From positions 1 through 35,531 of the forward strand of contig NZ_VMDW02000157.1 of assembly GCF_007644045.2 (NCBI RefSeq): a stretch of DNA of 35,531 bases, read 5' to 3'. The notes under the pieces were generated by a model, which was not told the DNA's origin, searched no databases, and worked only from the letters and a program-made list of their open reading frames with translations. Within the stretch, counting starts at the first letter, position 1. Each line of letters begins with the position of its first letter. Position numbers and translations under genes: made by a program. The DNA is from Vogesella urethralis. Lineage in GTDB: Bacteria; Pseudomonadota; Gammaproteobacteria; Burkholderiales; Chromobacteriaceae. Shown piece by piece: positions 17,218 through 35,531 of this stretch.

Positions 17218-17259
17218 GGCGCCGGTAGCCCCTTCCATCACACAGCACAGACGGACAAC

Positions 17260-18165
17260 ATGATGACTGCCACTTTTAACGTTCGTATCGGTATCAATCC
17301 GATTTCCTGGTGTAACGATGACCTGCCGTCGCTGGGCGGCGAAACGCCGCTGGAAACCATCCTGCGCGAAGGCAGCGAGATCGGTTACCAGGGCTTCGAG
17401 CTGGGTAACAAGTTTCCGCGTGACCCGGCCGCCCTGCGTGCCGTGCTGGCGCCCTATGGCGTGGCCTGCGTGTCCGGCTGGTACTCCGGCAGGCTGGCCG
17501 AGCGTTCTGCGGAAGAAGAAATCGCGGCAGTAGAAGAACACCTCACGCTGCTGGTGGAAAACGATTGCCAGGTGATGGTGTACGGCGAAGTCGGCGGCTC
17601 CATCCAGGGCCAGATCGATACCCCGCTGTTCAAGCGGCCAACCTTTACCAGCGAAGCAGCCTGGCAGCAGTACGCCGAGCGCCTGACCGTGTTTGCCCGC
17701 CATCTGGCTGCGCGCGGCATCAAGCTGGCCTACCACCATCATATGGGCGCCTTTGTGGAAAGCCCGGCCGATGTGGACAAGCTGATGGCACTGACCGGTG
17801 AAGAAGTGGGCCTGCTGTTTGATACCGGCCACATGGCCTTTGCCGGTGGCGACCCGCTGGCCGAGCTGGAAAAACATATTGCCCGCGTGGTGCACGTGCA
17901 CTGCAAGGACGTGCGTGGTGAAGTGCTGCGTCGCGCCCGCAACGGTAGCTGGAGTTTCCTGCAGTCGGTACTCAATGGTGCCTTCACGGTACCGGGCGAC
18001 GGGGATATTCCGTTCGGCCCCATCATTGAGCGTCTGGCCCGTCACGGTTACCAGGGCTGGCTGGTGGTGGAAGCCGAGCAAGACCCGACCATCGCCCCCA
18101 GCTACGAATACGCCCAGAAAGGCTTCCAGACGCTGCAGTCGCTGGTGGCCCGCGCCAGCCGCTAA
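17260..18165 (+). CDS. iolE: Inosose dehydratase
   Basis: A 301-residue TIM-barrel (AP endonuclease 2-like) enzyme that dehydrates 2-keto-myo-inositol to the cyclohexane dione, the substrate of IolD. The sequence opens 'VRIGINPISWCNDDLPSLGG', the IolE signature. Metal- and substrate-site segments include GYQGFELG, KLAYHHHMG, LLFDTGHMAFAGGDP, VHVHCKDVR and WLVVEAEQDP. The length is normal. Two adjacent ATGs (17260, 17263) are possible starts. It is 42 bp after iolC and 10 bp before iolB in one operon. Confidence 0.95.
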   Translation: MMTATFNVRIGINPISWCNDDLPSLGGETPLETILREGSEIGYQGFELGNKFPRDPAALRAVLAPYGVACVSGWYSGRLAERSAEEEIAAVEEHLTLLVENDCQVMVYGEVGGSIQGQIDTPLFKRPTFTSEAAWQQYAERLTVFARHLAARGIKLAYHHHMGAFVESPADVDKLMALTGEEVGLLFDTGHMAFAGGDPLAELEKHIARVVHVHCKDVRGEVLRRARNGSWSFLQSVLNGAFTVPGDGDIPFGPIIERLARHGYQGWLVVEAEQDPTIAPSYEYAQKGFQTLQSLVARASR

Positions 18166-18175
18166 GGAGACAGGC

Positions 18176-18973
18176 ATGAATCTGCTGGTAAAAGCCGATC
18201 CGGCGGGCAAACCGCTGGTCGATGTTACCCCGGCCTCTGCCGGCTGGACCCATGTCGGTTTCCGCGCCGTCAAGCTGGCGGCCGGCGAGCACGAGGTGTG
18301 GCAACAGCCGGGCCGCGAATGCTGCGTGGTCATCCTGGCCGGCAAGGCCAGCGTGCAGGTGGGTGACACCGTCTGGTCGGGGCTGGGGCAGCGCGACAGC
18401 GTGTTTGACGAGCAGGCACCGTACGCCGTCTACGCTCCGCCGGGGCTGGCGGTGACCGTGACGGCAGACAGCGCCGCCGAGGTGGCTTTTTGCTCGGCAC
18501 CGTCGGCGGGCAATCATCCGCCACGCCTGATCACGCCGGACAGCATGACGCGCAGCGTGCGCGGCAAAGGGGCCAATACCCGCTATGTGACCGACATCCT
18601 GCCGCAGACCGAGCCGGCTGACGGCCTGCTGGTGGTGGAGGTGCGTACCCCGTCCGGCCACTCGTCCAGCTACCCCCCGCACAAGCACGACCGTGACGCG
18701 CTGCCGGAAGAAAGCGTGCTGGAAGAAACCTACTACCACCGCCTCAACCCGGCGCAGGGGTTTGCCTTCCAGCGCGTGTATACCGACGACCGCCGCATTG
18801 ACCAGTCGATGGCGGTGGAAGACCACGACGTGGTGATGGTGCCGGAAGGTTACCACCCGGTGTGCGTACCGTACGGCTACGACTCCTACTACCTGAACGT
18901 GATGGCCGGCCCGCGCCGCGAGTGGTGTTTCCGGAATGACCCGGCCCACGAGTGGCTGCTCGCCAAGCCCTGA
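18176..18973 (+). CDS. iolB: 5-Deoxy-glucuronate isomerase
   Basis: A 265-residue double-cupin (KduI/IolB family) isomerase that converts 5-deoxy-glucuronate to 2-deoxy-5-keto-gluconate. Support: 'GWTHVGFRAVKLAAGE' near the N-terminus, VTDILP, and the metal-binding 'SYPPHKHDRDALPEESVLEETYYHRLNP' with paired His and Glu, followed by 'EDHDVVMVPEGYHPV'. The reading frame stays open far upstream into iolE (to 17798), but the true start is the ATG at 18176: AAGGAGA overlaps the iolE stop five bases before it, and IolB proteins begin 'MxLLVK'. The tight spacing implies coupling to iolE. Confidence 0.95.
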   Translation: MNLLVKADPAGKPLVDVTPASAGWTHVGFRAVKLAAGEHEVWQQPGRECCVVILAGKASVQVGDTVWSGLGQRDSVFDEQAPYAVYAPPGLAVTVTADSAAEVAFCSAPSAGNHPPRLITPDSMTRSVRGKGANTRYVTDILPQTEPADGLLVVEVRTPSGHSSSYPPHKHDRDALPEESVLEETYYHRLNPAQGFAFQRVYTDDRRIDQSMAVEDHDVVMVPEGYHPVCVPYGYDSYYLNVMAGPRREWCFRNDPAHEWLLAKP

Positions 18974-19063
18974 GCTGACCCCGTTTCACCCTATACGACC
19001 ATGGCCGGCCCCTGCGGGGGCTGCCAGGGCACCCTGTTGCCCGCTCGCTGAGGATACTGCTCC

Positions 19064-20560
<1,497 letters not shown>

Positions 20561-20595
20561 TTTCTGCTGTGACGCTCCCCCAGAGAGCACCTTTG

Positions 20596-20621
20596 CGCCA
20601 CCTTCACGGGTGGCGTTTTTT
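20596..20621 (+). terminator. Intrinsic terminator closing the iol operon
   Basis: CGCCACC (20596-20602) pairs with GGTGGCG (20609-20615), followed by T6. It lies 36 bp after the iolA stop. Confidence 0.9.
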
Positions 20622-20697
20622 ATCGGGCTGCAGTGAAGCAGCACCTGCGGGCAGGGCGTGTCACAATCCTGACGCTTCGCTTTACATTGGCCAGACC

Positions 20698-21504
20698 ATG
20701 ATCCCCCAGCAATTCTGGCGCGACGACGCCATGCCCTACGTTGAAAGCCGGCGCGCCCAGCAAAGCCGTGCTTGTTACCGTGCCCACAGCCATCCGGCGC
20801 TGTCTGTCGGTGCGGTGGATGCCGGCGCGTCGGTATTGCAGCTTGCTGGCAGGCAAGACCAGCCGTTGCAGGCGGGAGATGTGGTGGTGATACCCGCCAA
20901 TTGCGTGCACGCCTGCAACCCGCAGCCCGGCGGCGCGTGGAGTTACCAGATGCTGTATCTCGATACCGCATGGCTCGATGCACTGTGGCACGAAGCACAT
21001 GGCCAGGCTTTTACCTTGGGCACCACTGATGCCTGTCATTGGCGTGACCCGGCGACGTATACGGCGTTCTGTCAGTTGAATCAGCGCCTGTTTTCGCCTT
21101 CGCCGGTGGAGATGAAAGAGGCATCGCTAATTGCCTTTATCAGCGAATTGATGCTGCCTGCCGCGCCGGCAGCTGCTTGCCCCCCGGCATGGTTGCCCGG
21201 GTTGTGCCGGCAACTGCGCGAGCAGTGCCAGCAAGCCTGGCCGGTTGCCAGCCTGGCCGCTTCTGTGGGGGTAAGCCGCTACCACTTTATCCGCCTGTTC
21301 CGGCAGCACTGTGGCACGACACCCCATGCCTACCTGCTGGATTGCCGCATCCAGCGCGCCAGGCAATGGCTGCGCCAAGGCGAGGCACTGGCCGACTTGG
21401 CCTATCGCTTGGGCTTTAGCGACCAAAGCCATTTCCAGCATGCTTTCCGTGAGCGGGTAGCAGTCACCCCGGGCGAATACCAGCGCGGCGTTGGCAAGGC
21501 GTAG
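20698..21504 (+). CDS. AraC-family regulator
   Basis: A 268-residue regulator with an N-terminal cupin sensor domain ('YRAHSHPALSVGAVDAG', 'QAGDVVVIPANCVHACNP') and a C-terminal double HTH_18 ('ASLAASVGVSRYHFIRLFRQ' and 'EALADLAYRLGFSDQSHFQHAF', ending RVAVTPGEYQRG). The open frame extends upstream to 20569 through the iolA terminator, so the ATG at 20698 is the sensible start. It precedes a LysE-family exporter by 66 bp on the same strand, a common pairing in which the AraC protein activates the exporter. The effector is unknown. Confidence 0.9.
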   Translation: MIPQQFWRDDAMPYVESRRAQQSRACYRAHSHPALSVGAVDAGASVLQLAGRQDQPLQAGDVVVIPANCVHACNPQPGGAWSYQMLYLDTAWLDALWHEAHGQAFTLGTTDACHWRDPATYTAFCQLNQRLFSPSPVEMKEASLIAFISELMLPAAPAAACPPAWLPGLCRQLREQCQQAWPVASLAASVGVSRYHFIRLFRQHCGTTPHAYLLDCRIQRARQWLRQGEALADLAYRLGFSDQSHFQHAFRERVAVTPGEYQRGVGKA

Positions 21505-22206: not shown

Positions 22207-22610
22207 TGGCGCCACCCGATAGGTCGGTCCTCCTGCTCGCGGTACAGGGCAGGGTGAACGCGTCATGTCATTCCCGTTTGCGCCTTCTCCTGCCCGCTTA
22301 TGGGCGTCGTGTTAGCTGCCACTCGCGCGGTGAGGGTGTGCCATTCATTTCATGCTGATGGCAAGTGTTCTGGCCGGTGAGGAAGCAGTTTGCCTGTTGT
22401 CACGCTTACCTGTCCTGATGCTAGGTGGCGGCGCGGTGGAAGCATCCAAACTGGCCTGAGCGCGAATGTCATGATGTTGTTATCATGTAAAAAGTGTGTT
22501 CTATAAATTTCATAACAGTATCCGTGTGGTATTAATAATGTAAATTAACCGAATCAATGCTAAGTACGTCTCCATTGCCACTGACCAAGAACTGCAGGAA
22601 AGACCTCCCT
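22207..22610 (+). promoter_or_regulatory. Intergenic region with probable promoter for the TolC-adaptor genes
   Basis: About 400 bases without a supported gene. The first 240 are GC-rich and featureless apart from weak stem-loops. The AT-rich end holds a dyad, CATGAT-N6-ATCATG (22470-22487), that overlaps a -35-like TTGTTA (22478-22483). TATAAA lies 18 bp further on (22502-22507). This could be a promoter with an operator on its -35. It is tentative. Confidence 0.4.
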
Positions 22611-24149
22611 ATGAAAAAAGACAGCCCCATGCTTGCGTCCTTTGCCATGCTGCGCCCGATTGCTGCTGCAGCGCTGTTGCTAGGTTTGTCGGCATGCGCG
22701 TCCGTCGACTTGGCACCGTTGAGCTCTGCCGAAATCCAGAAAACCGTTAGCGAGGACCGGCAGGCTCTGGATAAAGACCTGGAGCCCATGGCGGGCGAGC
22801 TGACGCTGGAAGAGGCGATTGCGCGCGCCATCAAGTACAACGCCGAGCGCCGTGTGCGGCTGATGGAAGAGGCGGTGGCGGCGGGGCAATTCGAGTTGGG
22901 CAATTTCGACATGTTGCCGCGCCTGGTTGCCAGTGCCGGTTACCGTGATCGTGACAGTGACCTGATTTCCCGTAGCAAGGACTCGGTCACCGGGGCGCCT
23001 TCGCTGGCTAACCCGTCGATTTCCTCCAGCCGCAGTGCGCTTTCCAGCGAGCTGGGCTTTAGCTGGAGCCTGCTGGATTTCGGTCAAAGCTATTACGCTG
23101 CCAAGCAGAATGCCGATCGTGTTCTTATTGCCACCGAACGCCGCCGCAAGGCACTGCATAACCTGATCCAGGATGTGCGTACCGCCTACTGGCGGGTGGT
23201 GGCCGCCGAGAAGCTCAATGCTTCCATCCGCCAGACCATCCGCCAGGGTGAAGAAGCACTGGCCGATGCCCGCAAAGCCGAGGAGGAAAAACTGAAGTCT
23301 CCTCTGGAACCGCTGCGCTACCAGCGTCAATTGCTGGAAAACCTGCGCATGCTCGAACTGGTGGAACAAGAGCTGTCAACGGCGCGCATCGAACTGGCTG
23401 GCCTGACCCAGCTGCCCATACTGCAGGTACGCAACCTGGTCGAGCCTCGCAGCACCGTCAGCACGGTATGGCTGGATACGCCGGTTGAACAGATGGAAAC
23501 CTACGCCCTGCTGCAGAACCCCGAGCTGCGGGAAAGCATTTATAACGCCCGTATCGCACAGCAGGAGACACGGCGTGCGATGCTGAAGATGTTTCCCGGC
23601 CTGTCTTTCAATTACGCCATCAAGAACAGCGACGACAGTTACCTGATCAACCAGACCTGGCAAGAAACCGGGGTACAGGTTTCGTTCAACCTGCTGGGCT
23701 TTCTGTCGATGCCCGCCCAGCGCAAGCTGGCCGAAGCCGGCGTGACGCTGGCGGAACAGAAGCGCATGGCGACGCAAATGGCAGTGGTGTCCCAAGTGAA
23801 TATCGCCCGCTTGCAATACGCCAATGCCGCCGCGCAGTTCAACCGGGCCGACGCCATTGCCAGCGTGGACCAACGCCTGGCCGATCACGTCAATAACCAG
23901 GTACTGGCAGAGCGCCAGACCAAACTGGATAGCGTGTCGCAACAGACGTCCTACATCTTGTCCACGCTGCGTCGCTATCAGGCCCTCTCCAATGCGCAAG
24001 CTGCCGGCTCGCGCCTGCAGGCCAGCCTGGGGCTGGAGCTGCCTCTGGATGCCAGCCGTCAAGCATCGCTTGCCGAGCTGAAAGAGCAGGTAGCCAAGGC
24101 ATTGAATGCCTGGGAACAAGGCAAATTGCCCGCCGTAACCACCCCTTGA
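22611..24149 (+). CDS. TolC-like outer-membrane efflux lipoprotein
   Basis: A 512-residue outer-membrane channel of the TolC/OEP family. Starting at ATG 22611, the signal peptide ends in the lipobox LSAC with Cys29, so the mature protein is a lipoprotein. 'ELTLEEAIARAIKYNAERRVRLMEE' begins the first OEP repeat. Long coiled-coil helices ('KLNASIRQTIRQGEEALADARKAEEEK', 'YALLQNPELRESIYNARIAQQETRRAMLKMFPGLSFNYAI') lead into the second repeat. A start at 22557 is open but would put 18 polar residues before the signal peptide; AGGAAAG also favours 22611. It is 22 bp upstream of the adaptor gene. With no inner-membrane ATPase in the window, it may serve the giant protein downstream or an RND pump. 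Confidence 0.88.
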   Translation: MKKDSPMLASFAMLRPIAAAALLLGLSACASVDLAPLSSAEIQKTVSEDRQALDKDLEPMAGELTLEEAIARAIKYNAERRVRLMEEAVAAGQFELGNFDMLPRLVASAGYRDRDSDLISRSKDSVTGAPSLANPSISSSRSALSSELGFSWSLLDFGQSYYAAKQNADRVLIATERRRKALHNLIQDVRTAYWRVVAAEKLNASIRQTIRQGEEALADARKAEEEKLKSPLEPLRYQRQLLENLRMLELVEQELSTARIELAGLTQLPILQVRNLVEPRSTVSTVWLDTPVEQMETYALLQNPELRESIYNARIAQQETRRAMLKMFPGLSFNYAIKNSDDSYLINQTWQETGVQVSFNLLGFLSMPAQRKLAEAGVTLAEQKRMATQMAVVSQVNIARLQYANAAAQFNRADAIASVDQRLADHVNNQVLAERQTKLDSVSQQTSYILSTLRRYQALSNAQAAGSRLQASLGLELPLDASRQASLAELKEQVAKALNAWEQGKLPAVTTP

Positions 24150-24171
24150 TCGAATAGAAAAGCAAGTTGTG

Positions 24172-24975
24172 ATGAATACCCGTCGTGTCGTGCCCGTGCT
24201 AGCCATATTGCTGGCTTCTTTCCCGCTTGCCGCGCAGCAGGCGCCGGCCCCGTTGCCATTGGCCAAGCCGGCCGTGCGCGCGCCGGTCGCCGCCAAACCG
24301 GCGGCGGAGCAGCGCGAAATCCGTGCCCAGCTGGCCCCCAAACGCTACACCACCTTGGCCGCAGAAATCGGTGCCAAGATTTCGCGCATTGCGGTACCGG
24401 AAGGTGCCGCATTCAAGGCCGGCCAGACCTTGATCACCTTCGACTGTTCCTTGCAGGCAGCCCAGCTCAATCGTGCCCGCGCCGCGCAAAGCGCTGCTGA
24501 CAAAGCGTATAGCACCAACCGTCGCCTGGCCGAGCTGAATTCAGTGGGCAAGCTGGAGCTGGACACCTCTGAAGCCGAGGTGCGCAAGGCCAAGGCCGAT
24601 GTCGCCGCGGGGGCGGCAGTGCTGAGCAAATGCAGTATTGCCGCGCCATTCAGCGGGCGGGTGGCCGAGCAGAAGCTGCGCGAACAGCAGTTTGCCCAGG
24701 CTGGCCAAGCCATTCTGGACATCATTGATGATTCGGTGCTGGAACTGGCCTTTCTGGTGCCATCGCGCTGGCTGGCCTGGATGAAACCGGGCACGGCTTT
24801 CCAGGTGCGCATTGACGAAACCGGCAAGACTTACCCGGCGCGCATTCAGCGCTTGGGTGCCCGTGTCGACCCGGTCAGCCAGTCGATCAAGGTGAACGCC
24901 GTCATTGATGGCAAGTTTGCCGATTTGATGGCTGGCATGAGCGGCAAGGTGCTGATGACGCCCCCCGCCAACTGA
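24172..24975 (+). CDS. HlyD/RND-type periplasmic adaptor
   Basis: A 267-residue periplasmic adaptor (membrane-fusion protein). The Sec signal peptide (MNTRRVVPVLAILLASFPLAA) has no lipobox Cys and no remaining membrane anchor, unlike classic HlyD. It has a Pro/Ala-rich linker, a lipoyl-like half ('IGAKISRIAVPEGAAFKAGQTLITFDC'), a short coiled-coil hairpin (about residues 95-145), the second lipoyl half ('CSIAAPFSGRVAEQKLREQQFAQAGQAILDII') and a beta-barrel. It is short for the family (usually 350-450), so the C-terminal membrane-proximal domain is reduced. The start may also be the GTG at 24169. It is co-directional with the TolC-like gene and the giant gene. Confidence 0.88.
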   Translation: MNTRRVVPVLAILLASFPLAAQQAPAPLPLAKPAVRAPVAAKPAAEQREIRAQLAPKRYTTLAAEIGAKISRIAVPEGAAFKAGQTLITFDCSLQAAQLNRARAAQSAADKAYSTNRRLAELNSVGKLELDTSEAEVRKAKADVAAGAAVLSKCSIAAPFSGRVAEQKLREQQFAQAGQAILDIIDDSVLELAFLVPSRWLAWMKPGTAFQVRIDETGKTYPARIQRLGARVDPVSQSIKVNAVIDGKFADLMAGMSGKVLMTPPAN

Positions 24976-25074: not shown

Positions 25075-28000
25075 ATGAACCGCATTTACCGCTCTATCTG
25101 GAATGAAGCCAGCCGTACCTTTGTGGCCGTTGCCGAAAAAGTGCGTGCCAAAGGCAAACCTGCTTCCACCCAGCGTGGCCAGGCGATAGAGGAGGCACTC
25201 GTTACCTCGGCAGGCGCTGCCGCGCCTCAGGCGGTGCCACCGCGCTCACTGGTACGCCCGCGTGCGCTGGAGCAGCGGTTCATGTTTGATGCAGCAGCAG
25301 TCAGCACCGCCATCGATGCCGCTGGCGAGGCAGTAAACCATGACGTGCAGGCCGACAGTGGCCTCAGCAGTGTGCTGGACAAAATCGCGCAGTCGGTTGC
25401 CCAGCCACGCGATAGCGAGCGTGTTGCCGAGCCGGTACTGGTGCGCACGGGCGACCCGTCTGCCAGTGGCGGGCGCAAGGAAGTGGTGTTTGTCGATAGC
25501 CGTGTGGCCGATTATCAGACATTGATTGCGGGTATCGGGGCCGGCATTGAAGTGCGCCTGATCGACGGCAGCCAGGACGGCTTGGCCCAGTTGGCCGCAT
25601 GGGCGGCCAGCAACCGCGATTACGATGCCATCCACATCCTGAGCCACGGTAGTAGTGGTGTGCTGGCACTGGGTACCACAAAGCTCGACCTGAATGCACT
25701 GGATGCGCGAAGCGATGCGCTGGGGCAGTTGGGTAACACCCTCACCGCGAACGGCGACATTCTGCTCTACGGCTGCAATATCGCCGATGGCGAGGCTGGT
25801 GCGCAGTTCCTGACCCGGCTGGCAGCGCTGACCCGTGCCGATATTGCAGCGTCGGATAACAAGACTGGCGCTGCTGCTTTGGCAGCAGACTGGGTACTGG
25901 AAAGCCGGGTTGGTGAGATTGAAAGCAGCCTGAAAATCAATGCCGAAAATTGGCACGATGTCATGGGTACTGATTTTCTCAATATTTATACCTCGGCAGC
26001 GGCGGCTGCTACTGATGCCAATAATAACACTTATCTCGCCGGCAATTTGAGGGCTCAGACTTTTGATTTTGGTGGTCAAAGTCTGACTTTCGGTGAGAGC
26101 ACAGGGGTGTGGTTGGCAAAATATGATTACAACAATAACTTGGTGTGGGTTAAGCAGTGGAATTCACTGAAGGCAAACTCTTCTTATGGTGATAATGCCC
26201 GGGCATTGGCCATAGATGGCGCGGGTAATGTTTATTTATCAATGAGGGTCATGGGTGCTGGTAACGGAGGTAGTTCAAATGTTGGTAATGACACATTTGA
26301 TGCTGACCCGGGCGCCGGTGTGTCCAATGTGACAACCACGTCTTTTAATGGCGCAGGAATGCTGGTCAAACTGAATGCTTCTGGTGACTTTCAGTGGTCC
26401 AGACAAACCGGAGTGTCCGGCGATGGCGGGCGCATAGCGATTGATGGCAGTAATAATGTCTACTACCTTGGCACCTATCGTGATAATGCCAGTTTTGGTG
26501 GTGTTGCATTGGGTTCTGGTGGTTCCGGTACGCACCATTTCATTGCCAAAATGAATGCGGCAGGTAGTGTGCTTTGGACCAGAACTGCCTTTGCTGGTAA
26601 TGATGTTAATGCTTTTAGTGATGTGACTGTAGATAGCGCGGGTAAAGTTTATATTGCTGGTTATAATGGCCTTTCGCTTACAATTGATGGCGTGAATTAC
26701 ACAACTAATTGGTCGAGTACTGAGTACGATGGATTGTTATGGGCGTTGAATGCGGATGGGACGACAAACTACGTCAGAAAAATCTCGGGCTCTGCTAACG
26801 AACGCTATACCAATGTGGAAGTGCTAGCCGACGGTAATTTATTGCTGTCCGGTGTGTACCTGACCGGGACGGATCTGGACCCTTCGGCAGGAAGTACTGT
26901 GCCAAGCAATGTTGGTTTGACAGATTTCTTCCTCACCAAAATCAGTCAGATAGGTAGCCTGATCTGGTCGATTACCGCGGGAGGTACCGCTGCGGATACG
27001 GCCAAGCGGCTGTTTCAGGCGACAGATGGCTCTATCATTGTTACCGGTACATTCAATAACACCATTACGCTGGGCTCATATTCGCTTACCTCGGCCGGCT
27101 CCACCGATGCATTTATTGCAAAAATCACTAATGATGGTCAGGTTGCATGGGCGTACCGCTTAGGCAGTAGCGGGGCCGACGATATCATTGATGTCAAGCC
27201 ACTCAGCGGTACCCAGTTCCGGGTAATTGCCACTATCCGCAATACCACGGACGTTGACCCAGGTCCTGGGGTAGTGAATGCCACAACATCCACTGCCGGT
27301 GTGGCTAGTGTTGTGGCGTACACGCTTGATCTGAGCGGTGCATTTGCCACCACCGCCTCTGCCAGCGACACCACCCCGCCGGTATTCGATGTGGCACCGG
27401 CGGCAAGCAATGTCAGCACCAGTACGCTGACGCTGTCCGCCAGCATCGACGAGGCCGGCACGCTGTATTACGTGGTCGTGCCCGACGGCTCGCCAGCCCC
27501 TACGGCGGCGCAGGTGAAGGCCGGGCAGAATGGCAGTGGTGGTAGTGCCGTTACCTCGGGTAACAGCGCGGTGGCCAGTAGCCCGTTTACTGGCAGCTTC
27601 AATGTCAGCGGTCTGAGCGCGGGTACCGCTTACGATATCTACGTGGTGGCGCAGGACGACGAGGGCACGCCCAACCTGATGGCCAGCCCGGTCAAGGTGG
27701 ATGTCACCACCGCAGGCAACCCGCCAGTGTTTTCCTCCGCTGGCGCGGTCAATTTTGCCGAAAATGCAGCCGGTACCGTTTACGATGCCGAACTGAGTAG
27801 CGCTACTGGTACCGTCACCTTCTCGCTCAGCGGTACCGATGCCGCCAAGTTCAATATCAATGCCAGCACGGGGGTGCTGACATTCAAGGGGGCGCCGGAT
27901 TTCGAACAGCCCACCGATGTGGGGGCTAATAATGTTTACAATGTGACCGTTCGTGCCTCGGATAACAATGGTTATACCGACAAGGCCGTGGCCATTACGG

Positions 28001-31000
28001 TGACGAATGCCAGTGATGTCAATTTCACCGCTGCAGATAGTTCGGCTATTTCCAATAACGCATTGGTCAAATCGGTGACTGCCGGGCAAACGGCAAATAT
28101 TACGTTCTCTGCCGCTTCGTTTCTTGATTACTATGCGCCAAATGCGACTGCTGGTTTTCCTGGCGGCTTGTATGCCTACTCCGGGACCGGCTCTGAGCAA
28201 GAGCTGATCATCACGGCCCAGGCGGGTTATACGTTTGATCTGGCAAGTTTCAAGTTTGCACCGGATTTTTCGCAAGGTACCAATGCTGTCAAAGTACGCT
28301 TCACGTCTGGTGGTAATACTTACGAAGATACCTACGTACTGTCATCCAATGGCCAGTCTGGCTATTACAACCTGGTTATTCCCGCCACGCATGCCGTGAA
28401 TGATGTGACGGAAGTGCGCATCTGGGCTGCAAGTTATGGCGAGTTCCAGGATATCGAAATCTCTGATATCAAACTCAGCGACACTACGGCACCCACCGTG
28501 TCGTCCGTTACCCTCACTGCGGCCACCGGTGCGGCCAACAATACCCTCAATGCCGGTGATGTGCTGACTGCTACGGTCACCATGAGCGAAGCCACCACGG
28601 TTACCGGCACGCCGCAACTTGCCCTGAATATTGGCGGTACCACCGTGCAGGCCAACTATGCCAGCGGTTCAGGTAGCAGCGCGTTGACTTTTACCTACAC
28701 CATCCAGTCGGGTCAGACCGACCTGAACGGTGTCAGCATTGCGGCCAACGCCTTAACGCTGAATGGTGGCACCCTGAAAGATGCAGCAGGCAACGATGCC
28801 ACCTTGACATTTGCAGCGGTGGCAGACAATGCCAGCTACAAGGTGGATACCACGGCGCCGGTAGAGTCGGGCTCTGCCAGTTCCAACCTTGCGCAAACTA
28901 CGGCCACCATTGCTTCCACCAGCGACGAAGCAGGCACCATGTATTACGTGGTAACGACCAGCGCAACCCCCCCCAGCGTGGCGCAAGTCATGGCCGGGCA
29001 GAGTAATACCGGTGCGGTCGCGACCAAATCCGGCAGCGATGCGGTGGCGGCGGCTACGTCGAAGAGTTTCAATCTCACCGGGCTGACAGCTGCAACGCAA
29101 TACCACGCGTACTTTGTGACCGTAGATGCCGCCGGTAACCCAAGCAGCGTGGCCACGGCCAGTTTTACCACGGCTGCGCCCAATGTCGCCCCGACGCTGA
29201 CAACCGTGGGCACGGTAACAGGTGGCAACGAGGACAGCGAACAGACCATTACCTTTGCCAATCTGGTGGCGGCCGGCAACGAAGCAGACAGTGACGGTAC
29301 GGTAGACGCTTTTGTGGTGCGGGCGGTCTCCACCGGTACCTTGCGCATTGGCACTAGTGCCGGCACGGCCACCGCCTGGGCTGCCGGCAGCAACGATACG
29401 ATTGACGGCTCGCGTCAGGCGTACTGGGTGCCCGCCAGCAATGCCAACGGCAACCTCAATGCCTTCACCGTGGTGGCAAAAGACAATGCGGGCGCAGAGT
29501 CGTCTGCAGCCGTGCAGGTGGCAGTGGCGGTAACCGCAGTCAACGACGCGCCTACCGATATCGCTCTTTCAGCCACGGCCATTAACCAGTCGGCGGCGAC
29601 CCCGGCTGCCACCATTGCGACCGTGTCTGGCGCAGACCCTGAAAACGACGCCCTCACCTTTACCCTGGTGAGCGGTGCCAACGCCACCGACAACAGCAAA
29701 TTCGTCATTGACGGTACCACGCTGAAAGTAGGCGCTGACGCACTGGCAGCAGGTAGCTACAGCATTCGTTTGCGCGCCACCGACAATGGCACAGGCAATC
29801 TGGTGTATGAAGAAGTTTTCACCATCACCGTGGCCGATAATGTCGGCCCGAGCCTCGCCAGCAGCACGCCAGCAGACAACGCGTCGGGTATTGCACCTTC
29901 CGCCAATATCAGTGTGACGTTCAATGAAACCGTTGTTGCCGGCACCGGCAGCATTACCCTCTACAACGTCACCACAGGCGCAACAGTTGAAACGTTCAAC
30001 ATTGCCACAGGGGTAGGGAGTGCAGGCGGTACCGCATCGATTGCCGGTAGTACCTTAACGCTCAACCCGTCGGCCAATCTAGCCGAAGCAACGCAGTATG
30101 CAATCCGGGTTGATGGCACTGCAATCAAGGACGTGGCCAATAATGCCTTTGCCGGTATTGCCGACAACACCACACTCAACTTCACCACCGGCGTCAGCGA
30201 CAGCGCCGCACCGCTGATCCAGTCCATCCAGCGCCAGACGCCGGCTGGCGAGGCCAGCAATGCGGCCAGCCTGGTCTACACCGTGCGTTTCAACGAGGCG
30301 GTGACCGCAGCCGATAGCAATGACTTCCAGCTGACTAGTACCGGCACCGCCAGCGGCACCATCAGCGGTGTCAGCGGCAGCGGTACCGATACGCTGACCA
30401 TCACCGTGAGTAGCGTCAGTGGCACCGGTACCCTGGGTATCAGCCTGAAAAACACGCAAAACATCACCGATATTGCCGGCAATGCGTTGGCAACGGCCGA
30501 GCCTGCGGATGATGAGCTGTATGTTGTAGACCGTGATGCTCCGACACTGCTGTCGATCAACCGCGTCGGCGGGGAAAGCAGCCAGGGTGGCAGCGTGCAG
30601 TTCCTGGTTTTATTCAGCGAGCCGGTCAGCAATGCGGACGTGGCCGACTTTGCGCTGCAGCTGGGTGGTACCGCCAGCGGCACCATCAGCAGTATCAGCG
30701 GCAGTGGTACGCCGGTGCTGACGGTGACGGTGAGCAACGTGGCCGGTAACGGTGTACTGGGTCTGGGCCTGGCGAACGGCTACAGCATGAGCGACGCCGT
30801 GGGCAATGCCCTGGCCAGCAGCACGCCGGGGACCGGCGTGGCGGAAAGCTTTGTCATTGATAGTGTGGCACCACTCGTTACCAGCATTACCCGCACCGCA
30901 GACAGCCTCACAACCGCCGATAGCGTCAGCTTTGATGTCAGCTTCAGCGAGGCCACCAGCGGGGTAGACCTGAGCGATTTCAGCCTTGTTACCAGCGGTA

Positions 31001-34000
31001 CGGTAGCCGGCACGCTCAGCGCCATCAGCGGCAGCAACGGCCATTACCGGGTGACGGTATCGGGCATCAGCGGCAATGGCACGCTGGGCCTGACCTTTGC
31101 CGGTGGCCAGAACATTACCGATGCCAACGGCAATGCGCTGACGGCAACAACGCCGACGTTGGGCGAGGCGTACACCATCGATAATGCGGCGCCCACGGTC
31201 AGCGCCATCAACCGTGCCGGTGTGAATCAGATTGTGGCCGGCACCAGTACGACGGCCGTATTCACTGTGGTATTCAGCGAGGTAGTCAGCGGCGTCAGCG
31301 CGGCAGACTTTACCGTGACCGGCACGGCGGCCAACACTGGCATCAGCAGTGTCAGCAGCAGCGATGGCAAGACCTTTCACGTCACCGTCGGCGGGGTCAA
31401 CGGCAGCTCGGGCCAGACCGTGGGGCTGAACTTTAGCGGCACGGTAAGTGACCGTGTCAGCCAGACCGGCAGCACGGCGTTCAGCGCCGGCCAGGTTTAC
31501 ACCGTGGGTAATCTGTTGCTGAACGAAGGCGCGATCGATCAGGCAGCGCTGGATGCCTTGCTGGGCGTCAACCGTGATGGCGTGCAGAAGCTGGTCAGCA
31601 GCAGCGCGCCCGTGACGCAGGTGATCATCATCGATAGCCGCCTGCCGGGTCTGGCCGAGCAGCTAAGCAACCTGGCTGCCGGTACCGAGGTATGGCTGCT
31701 GGATGGCACGAGCAGCGCCACTGCGCAAATTACCCAGATTCTGGCGCAGTACCACAACCTGGCTGCGGTGCACCTGTTGTCGCACGGTAGCGAGGGCGCG
31801 CTCTATCTGGGTGCCGAAACGCTGTCTGCGGCCAACCTTGCCGCCCAGCAAACGACGCTGGCCGCGTGGGGTAGTGCCTTGTCTGCCAGCGGCGACTTCC
31901 TGCTGTACGGCTGCGATGTGGCCAAGGGCACGACTGGTACCGAGTTTATCAATGCGTTTGCCGCGGCTACCCAGGCCGACGTGGCGGCCTCCACCGACCT
32001 GACCGGCGCCAGCTGGCTGGGCGGGGATTGGGTGCTGGAGATGAAAATCAATGAAACAGTGGCAGAACTCAATATTGATGGTTATGCAAAAACATTAGCA
32101 CCAACAGTTCTTGCTGCTGGTGATATCGCCGTCGTCGGTATTAATACGGATGATTCTTTCCCTAATCAAAGATGGGCTTTTGTTCCTCTTGTGAATATTG
32201 CGGCAGGTACTGTCATTCATTTTACTGATGCAGGTTATACGGAGTCCGGTAGTTTTTATGATAATGCTACCAATGAGGGGCATCTGACTTGGACTGTGCC
32301 AAGTGAAATACTGGCTGGAACATTGATTACTGTTACTGGCAGTAATATAGATAATTACACAGGAGAGACTGGTGCTATAGGTGGCTCTAGTTTTACGTTC
32401 TCTTCTACGGGTGATCAGATTCTGGTATATCAGGGTACATCTGGCTCTACGAATGGAGCGACATTTGTTTATGCATTTAACAATGGTCAGCATGGCACAG
32501 TGTATGCTGCTGGTAATGGCTCTTGGAGTTCGAGCGTCAGCATTCAGCAAGCTAGCTTATTGCCTTCTGGTCTTGTCAGCGGCACAAGCGCAGTCGCTTT
32601 GTCTTCAAATATTACTTCGGGATCATCGTCTGGTGGTAGTTTCGGTTTTGATAACATGAAATACAATGGTATAAAAACTGGAACAAGGGCTGAGCTGTTG
32701 GCGGCTATAGGTAATGCAGCTAATTGGGTTGGTGATAATACTACCCCATATGATATGACGGCTATTGGTAATTTTACAATTACTTCCCCCGCCGATATGG
32801 TTGCACCAATATTCGATATCACGCCTGTCGCTGGCTCAGTGACCACGAGTGGCTTTACGCCTTTTGCCTCGTTGAATGAAGCTGGTACAGTGTATTACGT
32901 GGTTGTACCAAATGGCGCGACAGCACCCAACGTTGCAGAGGTGAAAGCTGGGACCGCGTCGGGCGGTGGTATGGTTTTTGCGAGCGGTAATAGCACAGTC
33001 AGCAACGGCAGTTTCGATACCAATTTCAGTTCAGTAACGAGCCTGACGGCCAGCACCGCTTACGATGTTTACTTTGTCGCAAAAGATGCCGCGAATAACG
33101 ACCAAACCAGTGTGACCAAAGTAACGGTCACCACGGCGACACCCACGGCCACCATTACCTCGGCGACGTACGATGCCAGCACCAATGTATTGACCGTCAC
33201 TGCGGCCAACCTTACCGCAGGTGACAGTATCGATGAGACCAAGCTCACGCTCACCGGTCAGGGCGGCGCAAGCTACACCTTGCAAGAGCAGGGGGCGGTG
33301 ACGGCCAGCAGCAGTACCTCGTTCTCGCTCACACTGAATACGGCCAACCAGGCTGCGGTGGAGGCTTTGCTGAACAAGGCGGGCTCTTCGGCCTATAGCG
33401 GTACCACCTACAATCTGGCTGGCGCTAGCGGCTGGAGCGTTACGGCCAATGCACCCGCCGATACCACCGGTAATGCGGTAACCGTGGCCAATGCCAATAC
33501 CTCGGCCACGCTGACTTTTGAGGCGGCGGACGGCACCTTGTCGGCCGATAATGCCACCAGCCTGACCTATACCACCGCTGCAGGTGTGTTTACCGTTACC
33601 GCTACCGATGCCGGTAATAATAATGCGGCGGGGCATGTCCGTTATGGTTCCGCATATGGTGATGTGAACGGGCGTATTGGTAGCGAGTCTATTTATGTTG
33701 TTAATGAGGGCAAGGCGGGCTCGGTCACCTTCACCGTCGAGCCGGGCAAGGTATTTGATCTGCTGTCTTTTTACCTGAGCAACCAGAATGGCTCGGTGAA
33801 TGAGAACTTTGTTATTACCACCAGCAAAGGCGGCTCTCATGCGGGCGTCGCAGGTGGTACCCCATCATCTATCGATACCGACCTGATTACCTTACCCAGT
33901 ACGTCGCTGTTCCAGGGCATTACGTGGTTTACGATTACCGCACCTAGCGGTGGTGCATTCATGGAGGTGGACAATATTGTTGTCGCCAACGTGCTGAGCA

Positions 34001-35531
34001 CCAACACCAACCCCACCATCTCCGATGTGAGCAACCAGACCATCAGCGAAGGCGGCGCCACCTCGGCACTGGCGGTGACCATTGGCGATACCGAAACCGC
34101 GGCCAGCTCGCTGACGCTGACCGGTAGCTCCAGCAACACCACGCTGATCCCCAACGGCAATATCGTCATCAGCGGCAGCGGTGCCAACCGTACCGTCACC
34201 ATCACGCCTGCGGCCAACCAGACCGGTAGCGCCACCATCACCCTGACGGTGTCGGACGGCAATGGCGGCACGGCCACCGATACCTTTACCGTCACCGTTA
34301 GCGACGTCAACCCGGTCATCAGCAACGCCACGGCCAGTGTGGATGAAAATGCCAGCAGCGGCACGGCAGTCACCACGGTGACCGCCAGCGGCGACACCAA
34401 TGGTCTGGTGTACAGCATTACCGGCGGCACCGGCAGCAGCCTGTTCGACATCAACAGCAGTACCGGCGCCATCACCGTGAAAAACGGTGCAGTGCTGAAC
34501 TACGAAGCCGCCAGCCAGGTCACGCTGACCGTGGCGGTGGACGACGAAGATGCCGATACCACGGCAGACAGCACGGCCACCCTCACCATCAACCTGAACA
34601 ACCTGAACGAGGCGCCTACCGATATCGCGCTGACGGCGACCGCGTTTACCAATACCCAGGCCACGGCAGGGGCAACGCTGGCTACCATCAGTGGTACCGA
34701 CCCGGATAACACGGCGCCGAACAATACGCTGACCTATGCCTTGGTTAGCGGTACCGGCGATACCAATAATGCTGCTTTTGTCGTGGATGGCAGCTCACTG
34801 AAGGTGGCCAGTGGTAGTGCCTTGGCAGCAGGCAGCTACAGTGTGCGCTTGCGGGTGAGCGATGGCGGCAGTCTGAGCTACGAGAAGGCCTTCAGTATCA
34901 CGGTGACAGACCCGCTGCCTACGCTGGTGTCTGCCAGCCCGCTGGATAACAGCACCGGCGTGGCGGTGAGCAGCCATATCGTGCTGACCTTCAGCGAAGC
35001 CATTACGCTGGGCACGGGCAATATCGTGCTGTACGACATCACGGGTAGCGGTGCCAACTCTGTCACCATCGATGCGGCCAACCATGGCGGTCAGCTATCG
35101 ATCAATGGCAGCACGCTCACCATCAACCCCACTGCCAACCTGCGTGCGGCCAACCAGTATGCGGTGCAAATCGCCAGTACCGCCCTGCGTGACAGCAGCA
35201 GCCAGGCCTATGCCGGCATTGCCGACATGACCTCGCTGAATTTCACCACCGGCACCACCGATACACAGGCGCCGATTGCCACCATCATCGACCTGGCCGA
35301 CCCGTCTGCGACGCATGCCGGTACTGCCAGCATTCGCTTTAGCGAACAGGTACAGAACGTCGATATCAGCGATTTCACGCTTACGCGTGATGGCCAGAGT
35401 GTGGATATCAGCAGCCTCAGCGTGGGCGGTAGCGGGGCCAGCTATACGGTGGACCTGTCCACGGTGACCACCGTGGCCGGTACCTATGTGCTGACACTGA
35501 ATACCAGCAACATCACCGATACCTCGGGTAA
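25075..35531 (+). CDS. Giant multidomain surface/secreted protein with two DUF4347 domains (3' end outside window)
   Basis: The frame stays open to the window edge: at least 3,485 codons. AGGAG lies just before ATG 25075. Domains by approximate residue: ESPR-like N-terminus 1-25; LEQRFMFDAA motif 65-74; DUF4347 135-290; SBBP-like beta-propeller repeats 303-700; FN3-like 764-880; cadherin-like 881-979; unnamed beta module 980-1136; Ig-like 1136-1262; FN3-like 1259-1366; cadherin-like 1491-1590; Big_5-like 1591-1706; four Ig-like repeats 1706-2143; second DUF4347 2179-2332; GDIAVVG domain 2341-2576; FN3-like 2576-2689; beta modules to 3080; two cadherin-like 3081-3281; Big_5-like 3281-3396; a further Ig-like domain at the edge. 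No RTX nonapeptides are seen, though they could lie in the missing C-terminus. The architecture matches very large adhesins exported by type I or related systems; the adhesin role is inferred. Confidence 0.9.
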   Translation, partial: MNRIYRSIWNEASRTFVAVAEKVRAKGKPASTQRGQAIEEALVTSAGAAAPQAVPPRSLVRPRALEQRFMFDAAAVSTAIDAAGEAVNHDVQADSGLSSVLDKIAQSVAQPRDSERVAEPVLVRTGDPSASGGRKEVVFVDSRVADYQTLIAGIGAGIEVRLIDGSQDGLAQLAAWAASNRDYDAIHILSHGSSGVLALGTTKLDLNALDARSDALGQLGNTLTANGDILLYGCNIADGEAGAQFLTRLAALTRADIAASDNKTGAAALAADWVLESRVGEIESSLKINAENWHDVMGTDFLNIYTSAAAAATDANNNTYLAGNLRAQTFDFGGQSLTFGESTGVWLAKYDYNNNLVWVKQWNSLKANSSYGDNARALAIDGAGNVYLSMRVMGAGNGGSSNVGNDTFDADPGAGVSNVTTTSFNGAGMLVKLNASGDFQWSRQTGVSGDGGRIAIDGSNNVYYLGTYRDNASFGGVALGSGGSGTHHFIAKMNAAGSVLWTRTAFAGNDVNAFSDVTVDSAGKVYIAGYNGLSLTIDGVNYTTNWSSTEYDGLLWALNADGTTNYVRKISGSANERYTNVEVLADGNLLLSGVYLTGTDLDPSAGSTVPSNVGLTDFFLTKISQIGSLIWSITAGGTAADTAKRLFQATDGSIIVTGTFNNTITLGSYSLTSAGSTDAFIAKITNDGQVAWAYRLGSSGADDIIDVKPLSGTQFRVIATIRNTTDVDPGPGVVNATTSTAGVASVVAYTLDLSGAFATTASASDTTPPVFDVAPAASNVSTSTLTLSASIDEAGTLYYVVVPDGSPAPTAAQVKAGQNGSGGSAVTSGNSAVASSPFTGSFNVSGLSAGTAYDIYVVAQDDEGTPNLMASPVKVDVTTAGNPPVFSSAGAVNFAENAAGTVYDAELSSATGTVTFSLSGTDAAKFNINASTGVLTFKGAPDFEQPTDVGANNVYNVTVRASDNNGYTDKAVAITVTNASDVNFTAADSSAISNNALVKSVTAGQTANITFSAASFLDYYAPNATAGFPGGLYAYSGTGSEQELIITAQAGYTFDLASFKFAPDFSQGTNAVKVRFTSGGNTYEDTYVLSSNGQSGYYNLVIPATHAVNDVTEVRIWAASYGEFQDIEISDIKLSDTTAPTVSSVTLTAATGAANNTLNAGDVLTATVTMSEATTVTGTPQLALNIGGTTVQANYASGSGSSALTFTYTIQSGQTDLNGVSIAANALTLNGGTLKDAAGNDATLTFAAVADNASYKVDTTAPVESGSASSNLAQTTATIASTSDEAGTMYYVVTTSATPPSVAQVMAGQSNTGAVATKSGSDAVAAATSKSFNLTGLTAATQYHAYFVTVDAAGNPSSVATASFTTAAPNVAPTLTTVGTVTGGNEDSEQTITFANLVAAGNEADSDGTVDAFVVRAVSTGTLRIGTSAGTATAWAAGSNDTIDGSRQAYWVPASNANGNLNAFTVVAKDNAGAESSAAVQVAVAVTAVNDAPTDIALSATAINQSAATPAATIATVSGADPENDALTFTLVSGANATDNSKFVIDGTTLKVGADALAAGSYSIRLRATDNGTGNLVYEEVFTITVADNVGPSLASSTPADNASGIAPSANISVTFNETVVAGTGSITLYNVTTGATVETFNIATGVGSAGGTASIAGSTLTLNPSANLAEATQYAIRVDGTAIKDVANNAFAGIADNTTLNFTTGVSDSAAPLIQSIQRQTPAGEASNAASLVYTVRFNEAVTAADSNDFQLTSTGTASGTISGVSGSGTDTLTITVSSVSGTGTLGISLKNTQNITDIAGNALATAEPADDELYVVDRDAPTLLSINRVGGESSQGGSVQFLVLFSEPVSNADVADFALQLGGTASGTISSISGSGTPVLTVTVSNVAGNGVLGLGLANGYSMSDAVGNALASSTPGTGVAESFVIDSVAPLVTSITRTADSLTTADSVSFDVSFSEATSGVDLSDFSLVTSGTVAGTLSAISGSNGHYRVTVSGISGNGTLGLTFAGGQNITDANGNALTATTPTLGEAYTIDNAAPTVSAINRAGVNQIVAGTSTTAVFTVVFSEVVSGVSAADFTVTGTAANTGISSVSSSDGKTFHVTVGGVNGSSGQTVGLNFSGTVSDRVSQTGSTAFSAGQVYTVGNLLLNEGAIDQAALDALLGVNRDGVQKLVSSSAPVTQVIIIDSRLPGLAEQLSNLAAGTEVWLLDGTSSATAQITQILAQYHNLAAVHLLSHGSEGALYLGAETLSAANLAAQQTTLAAWGSALSASGDFLLYGCDVAKGTTGTEFINAFAAATQADVAASTDLTGASWLGGDWVLEMKINETVAELNIDGYAKTLAPTVLAAGDIAVVGINTDDSFPNQRWAFVPLVNIAAGTVIHFTDAGYTESGSFYDNATNEGHLTWTVPSEILAGTLITVTGSNIDNYTGETGAIGGSSFTFSSTGDQILVYQGTSGSTNGATFVYAFNNGQHGTVYAAGNGSWSSSVSIQQASLLPSGLVSGTSAVALSSNITSGSSSGGSFGFDNMKYNGIKTGTRAELLAAIGNAANWVGDNTTPYDMTAIGNFTITSPADMVAPIFDITPVAGSVTTSGFTPFASLNEAGTVYYVVVPNGATAPNVAEVKAGTASGGGMVFASGNSTVSNGSFDTNFSSVTSLTASTAYDVYFVAKDAANNDQTSVTKVTVTTATPTATITSATYDASTNVLTVTAANLTAGDSIDETKLTLTGQGGASYTLQEQGAVTASSSTSFSLTLNTANQAAVEALLNKAGSSAYSGTTYNLAGASGWSVTANAPADTTGNAVTVANANTSATLTFEAADGTLSADNATSLTYTTAAGVFTVTATDAGNNNAAGHVRYGSAYGDVNGRIGSESIYVVNEGKAGSVTFTVEPGKVFDLLSFYLSNQNGSVNENFVITTSKGGSHAGVAGGTPSSIDTDLITLPSTSLFQGITWFTITAPSGGAFMEVDNIVVANVLSTNTNPTISDVSNQTISEGGATSALAVTIGDTETAASSLTLTGSSSNTTLIPNGNIVISGSGANRTVTITPAANQTGSATITLTVSDGNGGTATDTFTVTVSDVNPVISNATASVDENASSGTAVTTVTASGDTNGLVYSITGGTGSSLFDINSSTGAITVKNGAVLNYEAASQVTLTVAVDDEDADTTADSTATLTINLNNLNEAPTDIALTATAFTNTQATAGATLATISGTDPDNTAPNNTLTYALVSGTGDTNNAAFVVDGSSLKVASGSALAAGSYSVRLRVSDGGSLSYEKAFSITVTDPLPTLVSASPLDNSTGVAVSSHIVLTFSEAITLGTGNIVLYDITGSGANSVTIDAANHGGQLSINGSTLTINPTANLRAANQYAVQIASTALRDSSSQAYAGIADMTSLNFTTGTTDTQAPIATIIDLADPSATHAGTASIRFSEQVQNVDISDFTLTRDGQSVDISSLSVGGSGASYTVDLSTVTTVAGTYVLTLNTSNITDTSG
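25477..25950 (+). other. DUF4347 domain, first copy
   Basis: Residues 135-290 of the giant protein: EVVFVDSRVADYQTLIAGI, then HILSHGSSG (His187, His191, Gly192) and DILLYGCNIADG (Cys234), ending in DWVLESRVGEI. The SHG and YGC motifs on hydrophobic strands resemble the His/Cys dyad of caspase-like (clan CD, CHAT) folds. No activity is established from sequence. Confidence 0.9.
25981..27200 (+). repeat. SBBP-like beta-propeller repeats, AT-rich segment
   Basis: Repeats of the type 'D..GNVYLxG' recur: DANNNTYLAGNL, DGAGNVYLSMRV, DGSNNVYYLGTY, DSAGKVYIAGYN, LADGNLLLSGVY, TDGSIIVTGTF. Six such units would close a beta-propeller. The DNA from about 25970 to 26800 is clearly more AT-rich than the flanking parts of the same gene. 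Confidence 0.7.
29545..30190 (+). repeat. Cadherin-like plus Big_5-like module, first copy
   Basis: This encodes NDAPTDIALSATA...LAAGSYSIRLRATD, then GPSLASSTPADNASGIAPS...LTLNPSANLAEATQYAIRV...FAGIADNTTLNFTTG. The same order with closely similar wording recurs at 34610-35255. Confidence 0.75.
30190..31500 (+). repeat. Four tandem Ig-like repeats of about 108 residues
   Basis: Each unit has the form 'AP.v.SI.R...VxFxVxFSExVxxxDFxL...GTxxGTIsxIsGSG...VTVxxVxGNGTLGLxL...ITDxxGNAL', ending in a D-x-x-AP link. The units start near 30193, 30535, 30868 and 31189. At DNA level the stretch around 30345-30380 is nearly repeated around 30666-30710. The fourth unit has diverged in its second half. Confidence 0.75.
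31610..32070 (+). other. DUF4347 domain, second (internal) copy
   Basis: Residues 2179-2332: VIIIDSRLPGLAEQLSNLA, VHLLSHGSEGALYLG (His2233, His2237, Gly2238), DFLLYGCDVAKG (Cys2280) and GDWVLEMKINETVAEL. All the motif positions of the first copy are kept, including the 43-residue His-Cys distance. Confidence 0.9.
32071..32800 (+). other. AT-rich segment coding a 'GDIAVVGIN' beta domain
   Basis: Residues 2341-2576 read GDIAVVGINTDDSFPNQRWAF...IAAGTVIHFTDAGYTESG...LTWTVPSEILAGTLITV...TGDQILVYQG. This matches a module I know from large secreted bacterial proteins but cannot name firmly. The base composition is much more AT-rich than the DUF4347 segment before it and the repeats after 33130. Confidence 0.6.
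34610..35255 (+). repeat. Cadherin-like plus Big_5-like module, second copy
   Basis: This encodes NEAPTDIALTATA...LAAGSYSVRLRVSD, then LPTLVSASPLDNSTGVAVS...LTINPTANLRAANQYAVQI...YAGIADMTSLNFTTG, parallel to 29545-30190 in order and length. It is followed by another Ig-like unit that runs off the window. Confidence 0.75.

Follow-up and report, generated by a model that had tools for sequence, protein, structure and literature searches.

A giant adhesin-like protein of Vogesella with two DUF4347 domains, each followed by a segment that is replaced between related species

The locus and its giant gene

The DNA analyzed here (the window) is a stretch of 35,531 nucleotides from Vogesella urethralis (genus Vogesella, Chromobacteriaceae) that makes up contig C82 entirely; the draft genome totals 4.03 Mb in 157 contigs. 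Its right-hand part holds a giant open frame of 3485 amino acids (aa) on the forward strand which carries two DUF4347 domains and is still open where the contig stops, so that the C-terminus of the protein lies outside the window. Exactly two DUF4347 matches were found in the draft genome, both in this frame (at aa 137 and aa 2183), and both copies belong to Pfam DUF4347 (PF14252), scoring 187 and 164 bits against a cut-off of 24.6 bits. A first-pass annotation made from the sequence alone had described two such domains in one protein, one leading each half, and the Pfam matches at 25483-25956 and 31621-32076 show this to be real. Coordinates, trees, and counts given below were taken from a final DUF4347 profile built on 56 seed copies picked by their His/Cys pattern; three of 59 loci failed the pattern and all three were matched by the profile. 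Linker, hybrid, and doublet sequences were read directly, with borders from an earlier, poorer profile. The place headed by each DUF4347 is called a slot and the segment behind it a cassette. The features of the locus are as follows.

22557..24149, +, TolC-type outer membrane channel gene (Pfam OEP, E 2e-30)
24169..24975, +, HlyD/RND-type periplasmic adaptor gene (Pfam HlyD_3, E 3.8e-18)
25075..35529, +, giant two-DUF4347 protein, open frame truncated by the contig end
25075..25218, +, ESPR leader, aa 1-48 (Pfam ESPR, E 4.6e-13)
25267..25290, +, LEQRFMFD motif, which we take to be LEPR-like (LEPRLMFDGA and LEPRLLLDGA at the corresponding place in relatives)
25483..25956, +, DUF4347-1, leader type, slot 1 (187 bits)
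25633..25650, +, HILSHG motif of DUF4347-1 with the putative catalytic His
25759..25776, +, ILLYGC motif of DUF4347-1 with the putative catalytic Cys
25963..27384, +, AT-rich core of cassette 1 with SBBP beta-propeller repeats (24.2 bits, cut-off 20.5; borders by eye); GC 49.6%, third-codon-position GC (GC3) 47.7%, no counterpart in Vogesella aquatica
27562..27669, +, FN3-like module (fn3 19.2 bits, below the cut-off of 25), with EAGTLYYVV at 27451-27477
27775..27984, +, cadherin module of the first half (30.9 bits, cut-off 28.8)
29836..30189, +, Big_5 module of the first half (66.6 bits)
30859..31149, +, Big_12, the best of three stretches ahead of the linker (39.9 bits)
31501..31620, +, internal-type linker (LLNEGAIDQAALDALLGVNRDG); a similar linker precedes internal copies in V. 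aquatica, genome G812, and genus g446
31621..32076, +, DUF4347-2, linker type, slot 2 (164 bits)
31771-31788 and 31897-31914, +, His and Cys motifs of DUF4347-2
32040..34002, +, cassette 2, without V. aquatica DNA counterpart
32110-32709, +, AT-rich core of cassette 2 (GC 44.0%, GC3 32.0%; borders by eye)
34003..34296, +, Big_9 module, where DNA similarity to V. aquatica restarts (40.8 bits)
34330..34596, +, cadherin module of the second half (56.3 bits)
34918..35250, +, Big_5 module of the second half (72.9 bits)

Comparison of the two halves

The protein was compared with itself window by window, and DUF4347, an FN3-like module, and a collinear block were found in both halves. Identity between the two DUF4347 domains was 25/65, 33/78, 34/71, and 22/48 in individual windows (38-48%), and the FN3-like EAGTxYYVV module was identical at 39/77 and 39/78 positions. 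Within the collinear block (aa 1481-1760 against aa 3170-3440) the windows gave 43/79, 44/76, 39/77, 38/75, 37/73, and 33/72, with scores of 151-201 compared to a maximum of 70 for shuffled sequences (n = 40 comparisons); the best shared modules other than DUF4347 were approximately 46-58% identical. Mapping of both halves with hidden Markov models placed Cadherin and Big_5 in the same relative order, ahead of Big_12-like modules. When Pfam was run on slices of the protein, DUF4347-1 was followed by SBBP propeller repeats, an fn3-like module, cadherin, a further fn3-like module, Big_5, and three stretches of Big_12, while the 600 aa following DUF4347-2 gave no credible family and were succeeded by Big_9, cadherin, Big_5, and a Big-like module, the fn3 and last Big-like matches being below their cut-offs. 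The recurring module order proposed in the first-pass annotation therefore holds as a similarity but not as an exact repeat, since two FN3-like EAGT modules occur in the first half and Big_9 only in the second. Its statement that the AT-rich domains differ agrees with the Pfam results, which gave SBBP repeats for the first and, for the second, no family at E ≤ 0.05. Similarity between the halves at the DNA level was limited to a few short stretches, which argues against a recent duplication of a whole half.

It had also been suspected that two loci were wrongly joined at 31500-31620. This is contradicted by a single blastn alignment to V. aquatica (G050) which runs without a break across that point (85.5% identity, 1872 columns, window 30176-32040), and complete two-DUF4347 genes are present in other genomes, one of them a single contig (G1189). 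Although the giant frame runs off the end of its contig here and also in G050, G059, and G049, an assembly chimera is extremely improbable and was rejected on these two grounds. At the V. aquatica locus, tolC, hlyD, and a two-DUF4347 frame were found, the last likewise truncated by a contig end. The start of contig C83 of the window's own genome truncates a frame of 1211 aa for a further large, adhesin-like protein (L080:2-3637), with RTX-like (repeats-in-toxin) sequences seen by eye near the end of the frame. This frame was not used as the missing C-terminus, as its V. aquatica match lay in Big-like modules only (48%) and as it has relatives in members of the genus that lack a close copy of the window's adaptor gene.

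Replacement of the segments behind each DUF4347

In comparison with V. aquatica, the window protein was similar at aa 1-240, 1591-2340, and 2941-3480 (60-residue test, 60% identity). The blastn similarity stopped at 25651, one base past the HILSHG codons of DUF4347-1, and restarted at 30176; it stopped again at 32040, close to where DUF4347-2 ends, and restarted at 34003 with the start of Big_9. DNA identity in the region of DUF4347-1 fell from 79-97% (aa 1-200) to 49-59% (aa 201-275), which places the left exchange border inside this domain. The segments behind DUF4347 matched in neither slot of this Vogesella pair, and a third Vogesella genome (G059) carried yet another segment behind DUF4347-1.

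The same pattern was found in g446, a genus of the same class as the window. Among the 15 pairs formed by six g446 genomes, the leader was 68-98% and the DUF4347-1 halves 69-93% identical, as were the 250 aa ahead of DUF4347-2 (79-95%) and the DUF4347-2 halves (77-97%). The 200 aa behind DUF4347 matched in one of 15 pairs at slot 1 and in one of 15 at slot 2, and the two pairs were different: G1198 has slot 1 in common with G1185 and slot 2 in common with G1207. A larger set gave matches of at least 50% over 100 aa in 5/78 slot-1 pairs and 1/21 slot-2 pairs (shuffled 0/200), with four more slot-1 pairs at 40-50% identity; its 13 slot-1 copies were selected by the leader word PTEVRA, a rule which missed G1207 and L096. 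One weak match across slots was observed (L093 slot 1 against L099 slot 2, 45% over 193 aa). The segment behind each DUF4347 is thus replaced block-wise, and we infer that recombination is the cause. Pfam searches of the cassettes returned FG-GAP propellers in several and no family in many, and a weak Arteri_Gl match below its cut-off was taken as chance. With respect to the first-pass annotation, module exchange was borne out, although an exchanged segment behind each DUF4347 had been hinted at rather than located.

Base composition was compared between each DUF4347 and the 200 aa following it. The following segment was GC-poorer in 16/16 cases from eight two-slot proteins, with values in the window of 47.0 and 43.7% for the segments and 61.6 and 64.2% for the DUF4347 domains. 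In a set of 37 copies, 12 of which are shared with the eight two-slot proteins, the segment had the lower GC in 32, whereas five (L092, L094, the first copy of L099, L108, and L109) showed an equal or higher value. The lower GC could reflect arrival from elsewhere, or alternatively selection on composition. In V. aquatica (L032) a block of 1301 bp, comprising Calx-beta, Big_9, and cadherin, lies behind both slots (approximately aa 476-909 and 2399-2831) with 99.1% identical DNA (11 mismatches) and a protein identical over most of its length, which indicates recent copying between slots.

Ancestry of the internal DUF4347

Two trees of DUF4347 domains were compared. In the first, which contained 77 of the 87 domain copies after removal of identical sequences and of duplicated window and V. 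aquatica loci, seven internal copies and one N-terminal copy from G812, a metagenome-assembled genome (MAG), formed a clade (100/99), and the window's N-terminal copy was placed apart from it, together with the N-terminal copies of V. aquatica and G059 (100/94). The second had 95 rows, a further 16 (near-copies and G735_a) and the broken first copy of L099 having been excluded; in it 13 linker-type internal copies and the same G812 copy formed one clade of 14 rows (Shimodaira-Hasegawa-like approximate likelihood ratio test 99) that takes in Vogesella, g446, and G812. The DUF4347 copies of g446 and G812 were sampled in part. The G812 exception (L074:15421-15942, reverse strand, contig C44) reads as a hybrid domain in which an N-terminal-type start runs into an internal-type copy. 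A linker of the form LLNEG-A/S-xxQxxLD stands ahead of internal copies in Vogesella, g446, and G812, and LLNEG was seen only ahead of internal copies. As the internal copies form one clade apart from the N-terminal copies, the internal DUF4347 is, judged from these sequences, a distinct subfamily of old origin that has a linker of its own, and the two-slot layout would accordingly have been inherited or transferred and not have arisen by recent duplication here.

The origin suggested in the first-pass annotation was a fusion of paralogous genes or a multi-kilobase duplication, either one followed by module exchange. Module exchange is clear. The trees led us to reject duplication of the gene's own N-terminal half, given that the internal copy clusters with its counterparts in another genus and in a MAG rather than with its own N-terminal partner. 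A recent duplication of the first half with later divergence by module exchange would account for the recurring module order and for the level of identity between FN3-like, cadherin-like, and Big_5 modules (approximately 40-58%), and the near-identical V. aquatica block demonstrates that copying between halves does occur; nevertheless, the different clades of the two DUF4347 domains, the restriction of the LLNEG linker to internal copies, and the minimal DNA similarity between the halves make it quite unlikely. One case in which a protein's own two copies grouped together is G812 C44, where the N-terminal copy looks to have been replaced by an internal-type one. Old gene fusion and insertion of an internal-type unit remain candidates. 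A fusion of tandem leader-type and linker-type DUF4347 genes, since inherited or transferred, would be compatible with cassette exchange, and in G260, G307, and G812 contigs C19, C21, and C40 DUF4347 frames occur as separate close neighbors; we regard it as possible but rather doubtful, as all 13 of 13 linker-type copies in the tree, from the partial sampling of G812 and g446, were internal.

DUF4347 fold and His/Cys pair

A structural model of DUF4347-2 (predicted local distance difference test 86), with fold matches, points to the alpha/beta fold of clan-CD (caspase/CHAT-like) cysteine peptidases. In clan CD, His-Gly and Gly/Ala-Cys motifs follow consecutive strands. HxLSHG and LLYGC motifs are present in both window copies, and strands 87-93 and 127-136 of the model precede the His and Cys motifs. 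The His was kept in 116/120 and the Cys in 118/120 aligned copies, these being copies over a score cut of 60 or 100 bits together with L078 and L079, with the weaker first copies of doublets L076 and L077, which by eye lack the dyad, left out. DUF4347 is a putative cysteine peptidase.

Export and adhesin nature

TolC- and HlyD-type genes lie directly ahead of the giant gene, as in type I secreted (RTX) adhesins, and a TolC-type gene was also found upstream in V. aquatica and G059. The best NCBIfam match of the adaptor was RND_mfp and not type_I_hlyD; among 13 genus genomes, its own included, matches of 94-96% identity occurred only in G050 and G059, and the next best were 47-48% identical. In g446, tolC and hlyD open reading frames (ORFs) lay directly upstream of the giant in five of six cases. 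In G1189 another ORF stands between tolC and the giant, no hlyD of at least 240 aa is listed upstream, and genes for HlyD and M50-HlyD lie downstream of the giant, a place that the window ends short of. No inner-membrane ABC transporter was present among the nine upstream ORFs scanned, which are part of the window's ORFs, and the complete relative in G1189 gave no RTX Pfam match at E ≤ 0.001, the window gene itself being truncated. The ESPR leader is of a type found on type V secretion passengers. A crude test of aa 1-144 did not find a hydrophobic signal-peptide core after it (best 15-residue Kyte-Doolittle mean 1.23), and its absence speaks against plain Sec export. Because of the gene order, export through TolC and the HlyD-type adaptor is suggested; the protein would be displayed on the surface and serve in adhesion, being most likely a very large secreted surface adhesin. 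SBBP and FG-GAP propeller repeats in some cassettes suit putative ligand binding.

Proposed mechanism and rival explanations

On balance we consider it likely that the gene encodes a two-slot giant adhesin in which a conserved DUF4347 heads each slot, an exchangeable cassette follows, and export proceeds via TolC and HlyD-type components. In such a system the giant protein would pass through the neighboring TolC and HlyD-type components and supply a backbone with two slots, each headed by a conserved DUF4347. A cassette would consist of a GC-poor beta-propeller or other domain without a family, presumed to bind a ligand, followed by an Ig-like and cadherin-like stalk. The cassette of one slot would be replaced independently of the other by recombination with its left border at the end of, or inside, DUF4347, and the DUF4347 peptidase would process itself next to the cassette. 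Self-processing at the cassette border is the mechanism we favor, although with somewhat less than even confidence. Only tentatively do we extend this to a general system of two to three slots in which leader-type and linker-type caspase-like peptidases mark and process the borders of swappable binding cassettes, with recombination in DUF4347, even between slots.

Several observations set bounds to the reading of cassette exchange behind DUF4347. For 56 loci with a single copy, drawn from the family and order of the window, the 200 aa following DUF4347 were kept in 184/192 pairs, unlike in the two-slot proteins, so exchange is lineage-bound; single-copy g446 genes show cassette variation as well, and the contrast with the 56 loci therefore lies between lineages and not between one- and two-copy genes. 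Variable stretches also occur away from DUF4347: approximately aa 3570-4080 of G1189 had no match in G1185 or G1191 and holds no DUF4347, and aa 3210-4740 of G1207 (L083), well behind slot 2, had no match in G1185/G1191 and no DUF4347 ahead. DUF4347 is thus a fixed left border of two exchanged segments but not of every variable one. Short generic modules matched inside cassettes of g446 proteins, and the last 250 aa of four complete g446 proteins were 54-67% identical.

The main rival to self-processing is that DUF4347 serves as a structural collar or spacer without catalytic activity, whose conservation merely offers homology for recombination. The position of the left border within DUF4347-1 when the window is compared with V. 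aquatica, the hybrid domain in L074, and the loss of the dyad in some side-by-side doublet copies would all be consistent with a dead collar, but retention of His and Cys in nearly all aligned copies would not be expected of one, and we hold it to be a possible but less probable explanation than self-processing. A role as a polymorphic toxin or secreted effector in which DUF4347 would be the active enzyme, as has been suggested for the type VI effectors Tce1/Tce2, is improbable for this protein. Tce1 is the closest solved relative; however, the conserved element here is DUF4347 and the variable one follows it, opposite to the order in toxins with variable tips, and a long Ig/cadherin stalk is present.

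Giant modular adhesin-like proteins are of a known kind. What is new is cassette exchange behind each DUF4347, a role of the domain that was not found in the literature searched. Since the segments behind DUF4347 differ wholesale between related species, a single backbone could apparently carry a variety of binding parts, and, if the proposal is correct, a single giant surface protein could be re-targeted by independent cassette swaps. DUF4347 is widespread (95/398 genomes of a phylum sample) yet seldom named in the literature searched, and the pattern gives it a testable role as the fixed border of exchanged segments with a peptidase-type His and Cys kept. If the borders are also processing sites, this would be a general way to present different binding parts on one scaffold.

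Distribution and comparison with known systems

DUF4347 was found in 32/61 genomes of the family, where only the window genome (G000) and V. aquatica carried two in one frame, and in 64/399 genomes of an order sample, with no further two-copy frame among the matches listed. A class sample (48/369 genomes) gave side-by-side doublets in G735, G702, and G723 (first copy partial), and in the phylum sample G937 had two in one frame among the matches listed. Two matches were assigned to one frame if contig and frame length agreed, and as no more than 8-9 candidates were scored per genome in the order, class, and phylum searches, counts of multi-copy frames are lower bounds. Each species was represented by one genome. 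In g446, which belongs to the family of G937, 26/48 genomes contained DUF4347, and two distant copies in one frame were present in six (G937, G1185, G1189, G1191, G1198, and G1207). Counting G1197 (L099), where the first DUF4347 is broken by stop codons and the linker-type copy is still open, at least 7/48 genomes have two-slot genes. G1189 is one contig with a complete ORF of 4409 aa; the giant ORFs of G1185 (4560 aa), G1191 (4114 aa), and G1207 (5094 aa) are also complete, and those of G937 and G1198 are truncated. The 3.3-Mb MAG G812 (loci L070, L071, L073, and L074), labelled uncultured Chlorobiaceae, gave 29 DUF4347 matches, with three, two, and two copies in three frames; some of its copies are followed by FG-GAP propellers. 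Both copies look intact in the side-by-side doublets of G1165 (L087) and G1169 (L086), while in doublets L075, L076, L077, and L079 the first copy is partial or lacks His and/or Cys, and the second copy of L076 also lacks His. The layout is thus not unique to the window. As the first-pass annotation had supposed, no paper describing this layout was found in the literature searched.

DUF4347-2 had no match at E ≤ 1e-5 in a phage collection; 106 plasmid records contain a match to it. On the E. coli plasmid pKL53-L a 4473-aa Ig-like protein (L078:13767-27188) resembles the window protein in its N-terminal DUF4347, its giant Ig-like build, and its neighboring TolC gene, but giants of this type have one DUF4347 only. 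The pKL53-L gene lies near a silver/copper resistance cluster.

Other known proteins also offer a comparison. PA0256 is called a DUF4347 protein in PMC8262886, as is Tce1 in its PDB entry (9qpe). Tce1 (PA0256) shares the DUF4347 fold and the His and Cys pair (PMC13323088) but is a 310-aa type VI cargo and not a module of a giant surface-type protein. AhLap, an RTX adhesin of Aeromonas hydrophila, is likewise giant and secreted, and more than one kind of ligand-binding domain stands among its Ig-like extenders; its binding domains, however, bud from split Ig-like domains, whereas the variable segment here follows DUF4347 (PMC12077191). BapP of Pseudoalteromonas tunicata is alike in its beta-propeller, Ig-like repeats, and predicted type 1 secretion, but has a single N-terminal propeller, and PMC12153261 is not one of the papers in the literature searched that contain the word DUF4347. 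DDxP proteins are also giant and modular and change by module gain, but by insertion at DDxP motifs and not by replacement behind a peptidase-like domain (PMC7730722).

Upstream of the adhesin locus, window positions 15265-21504 encode a PfkB-DUF2090 fusion, AP_endonuc_2, KduI/IolB, an aldehyde dehydrogenase, and an AraC-type regulator, a gene run which is presumably for inositol catabolism.
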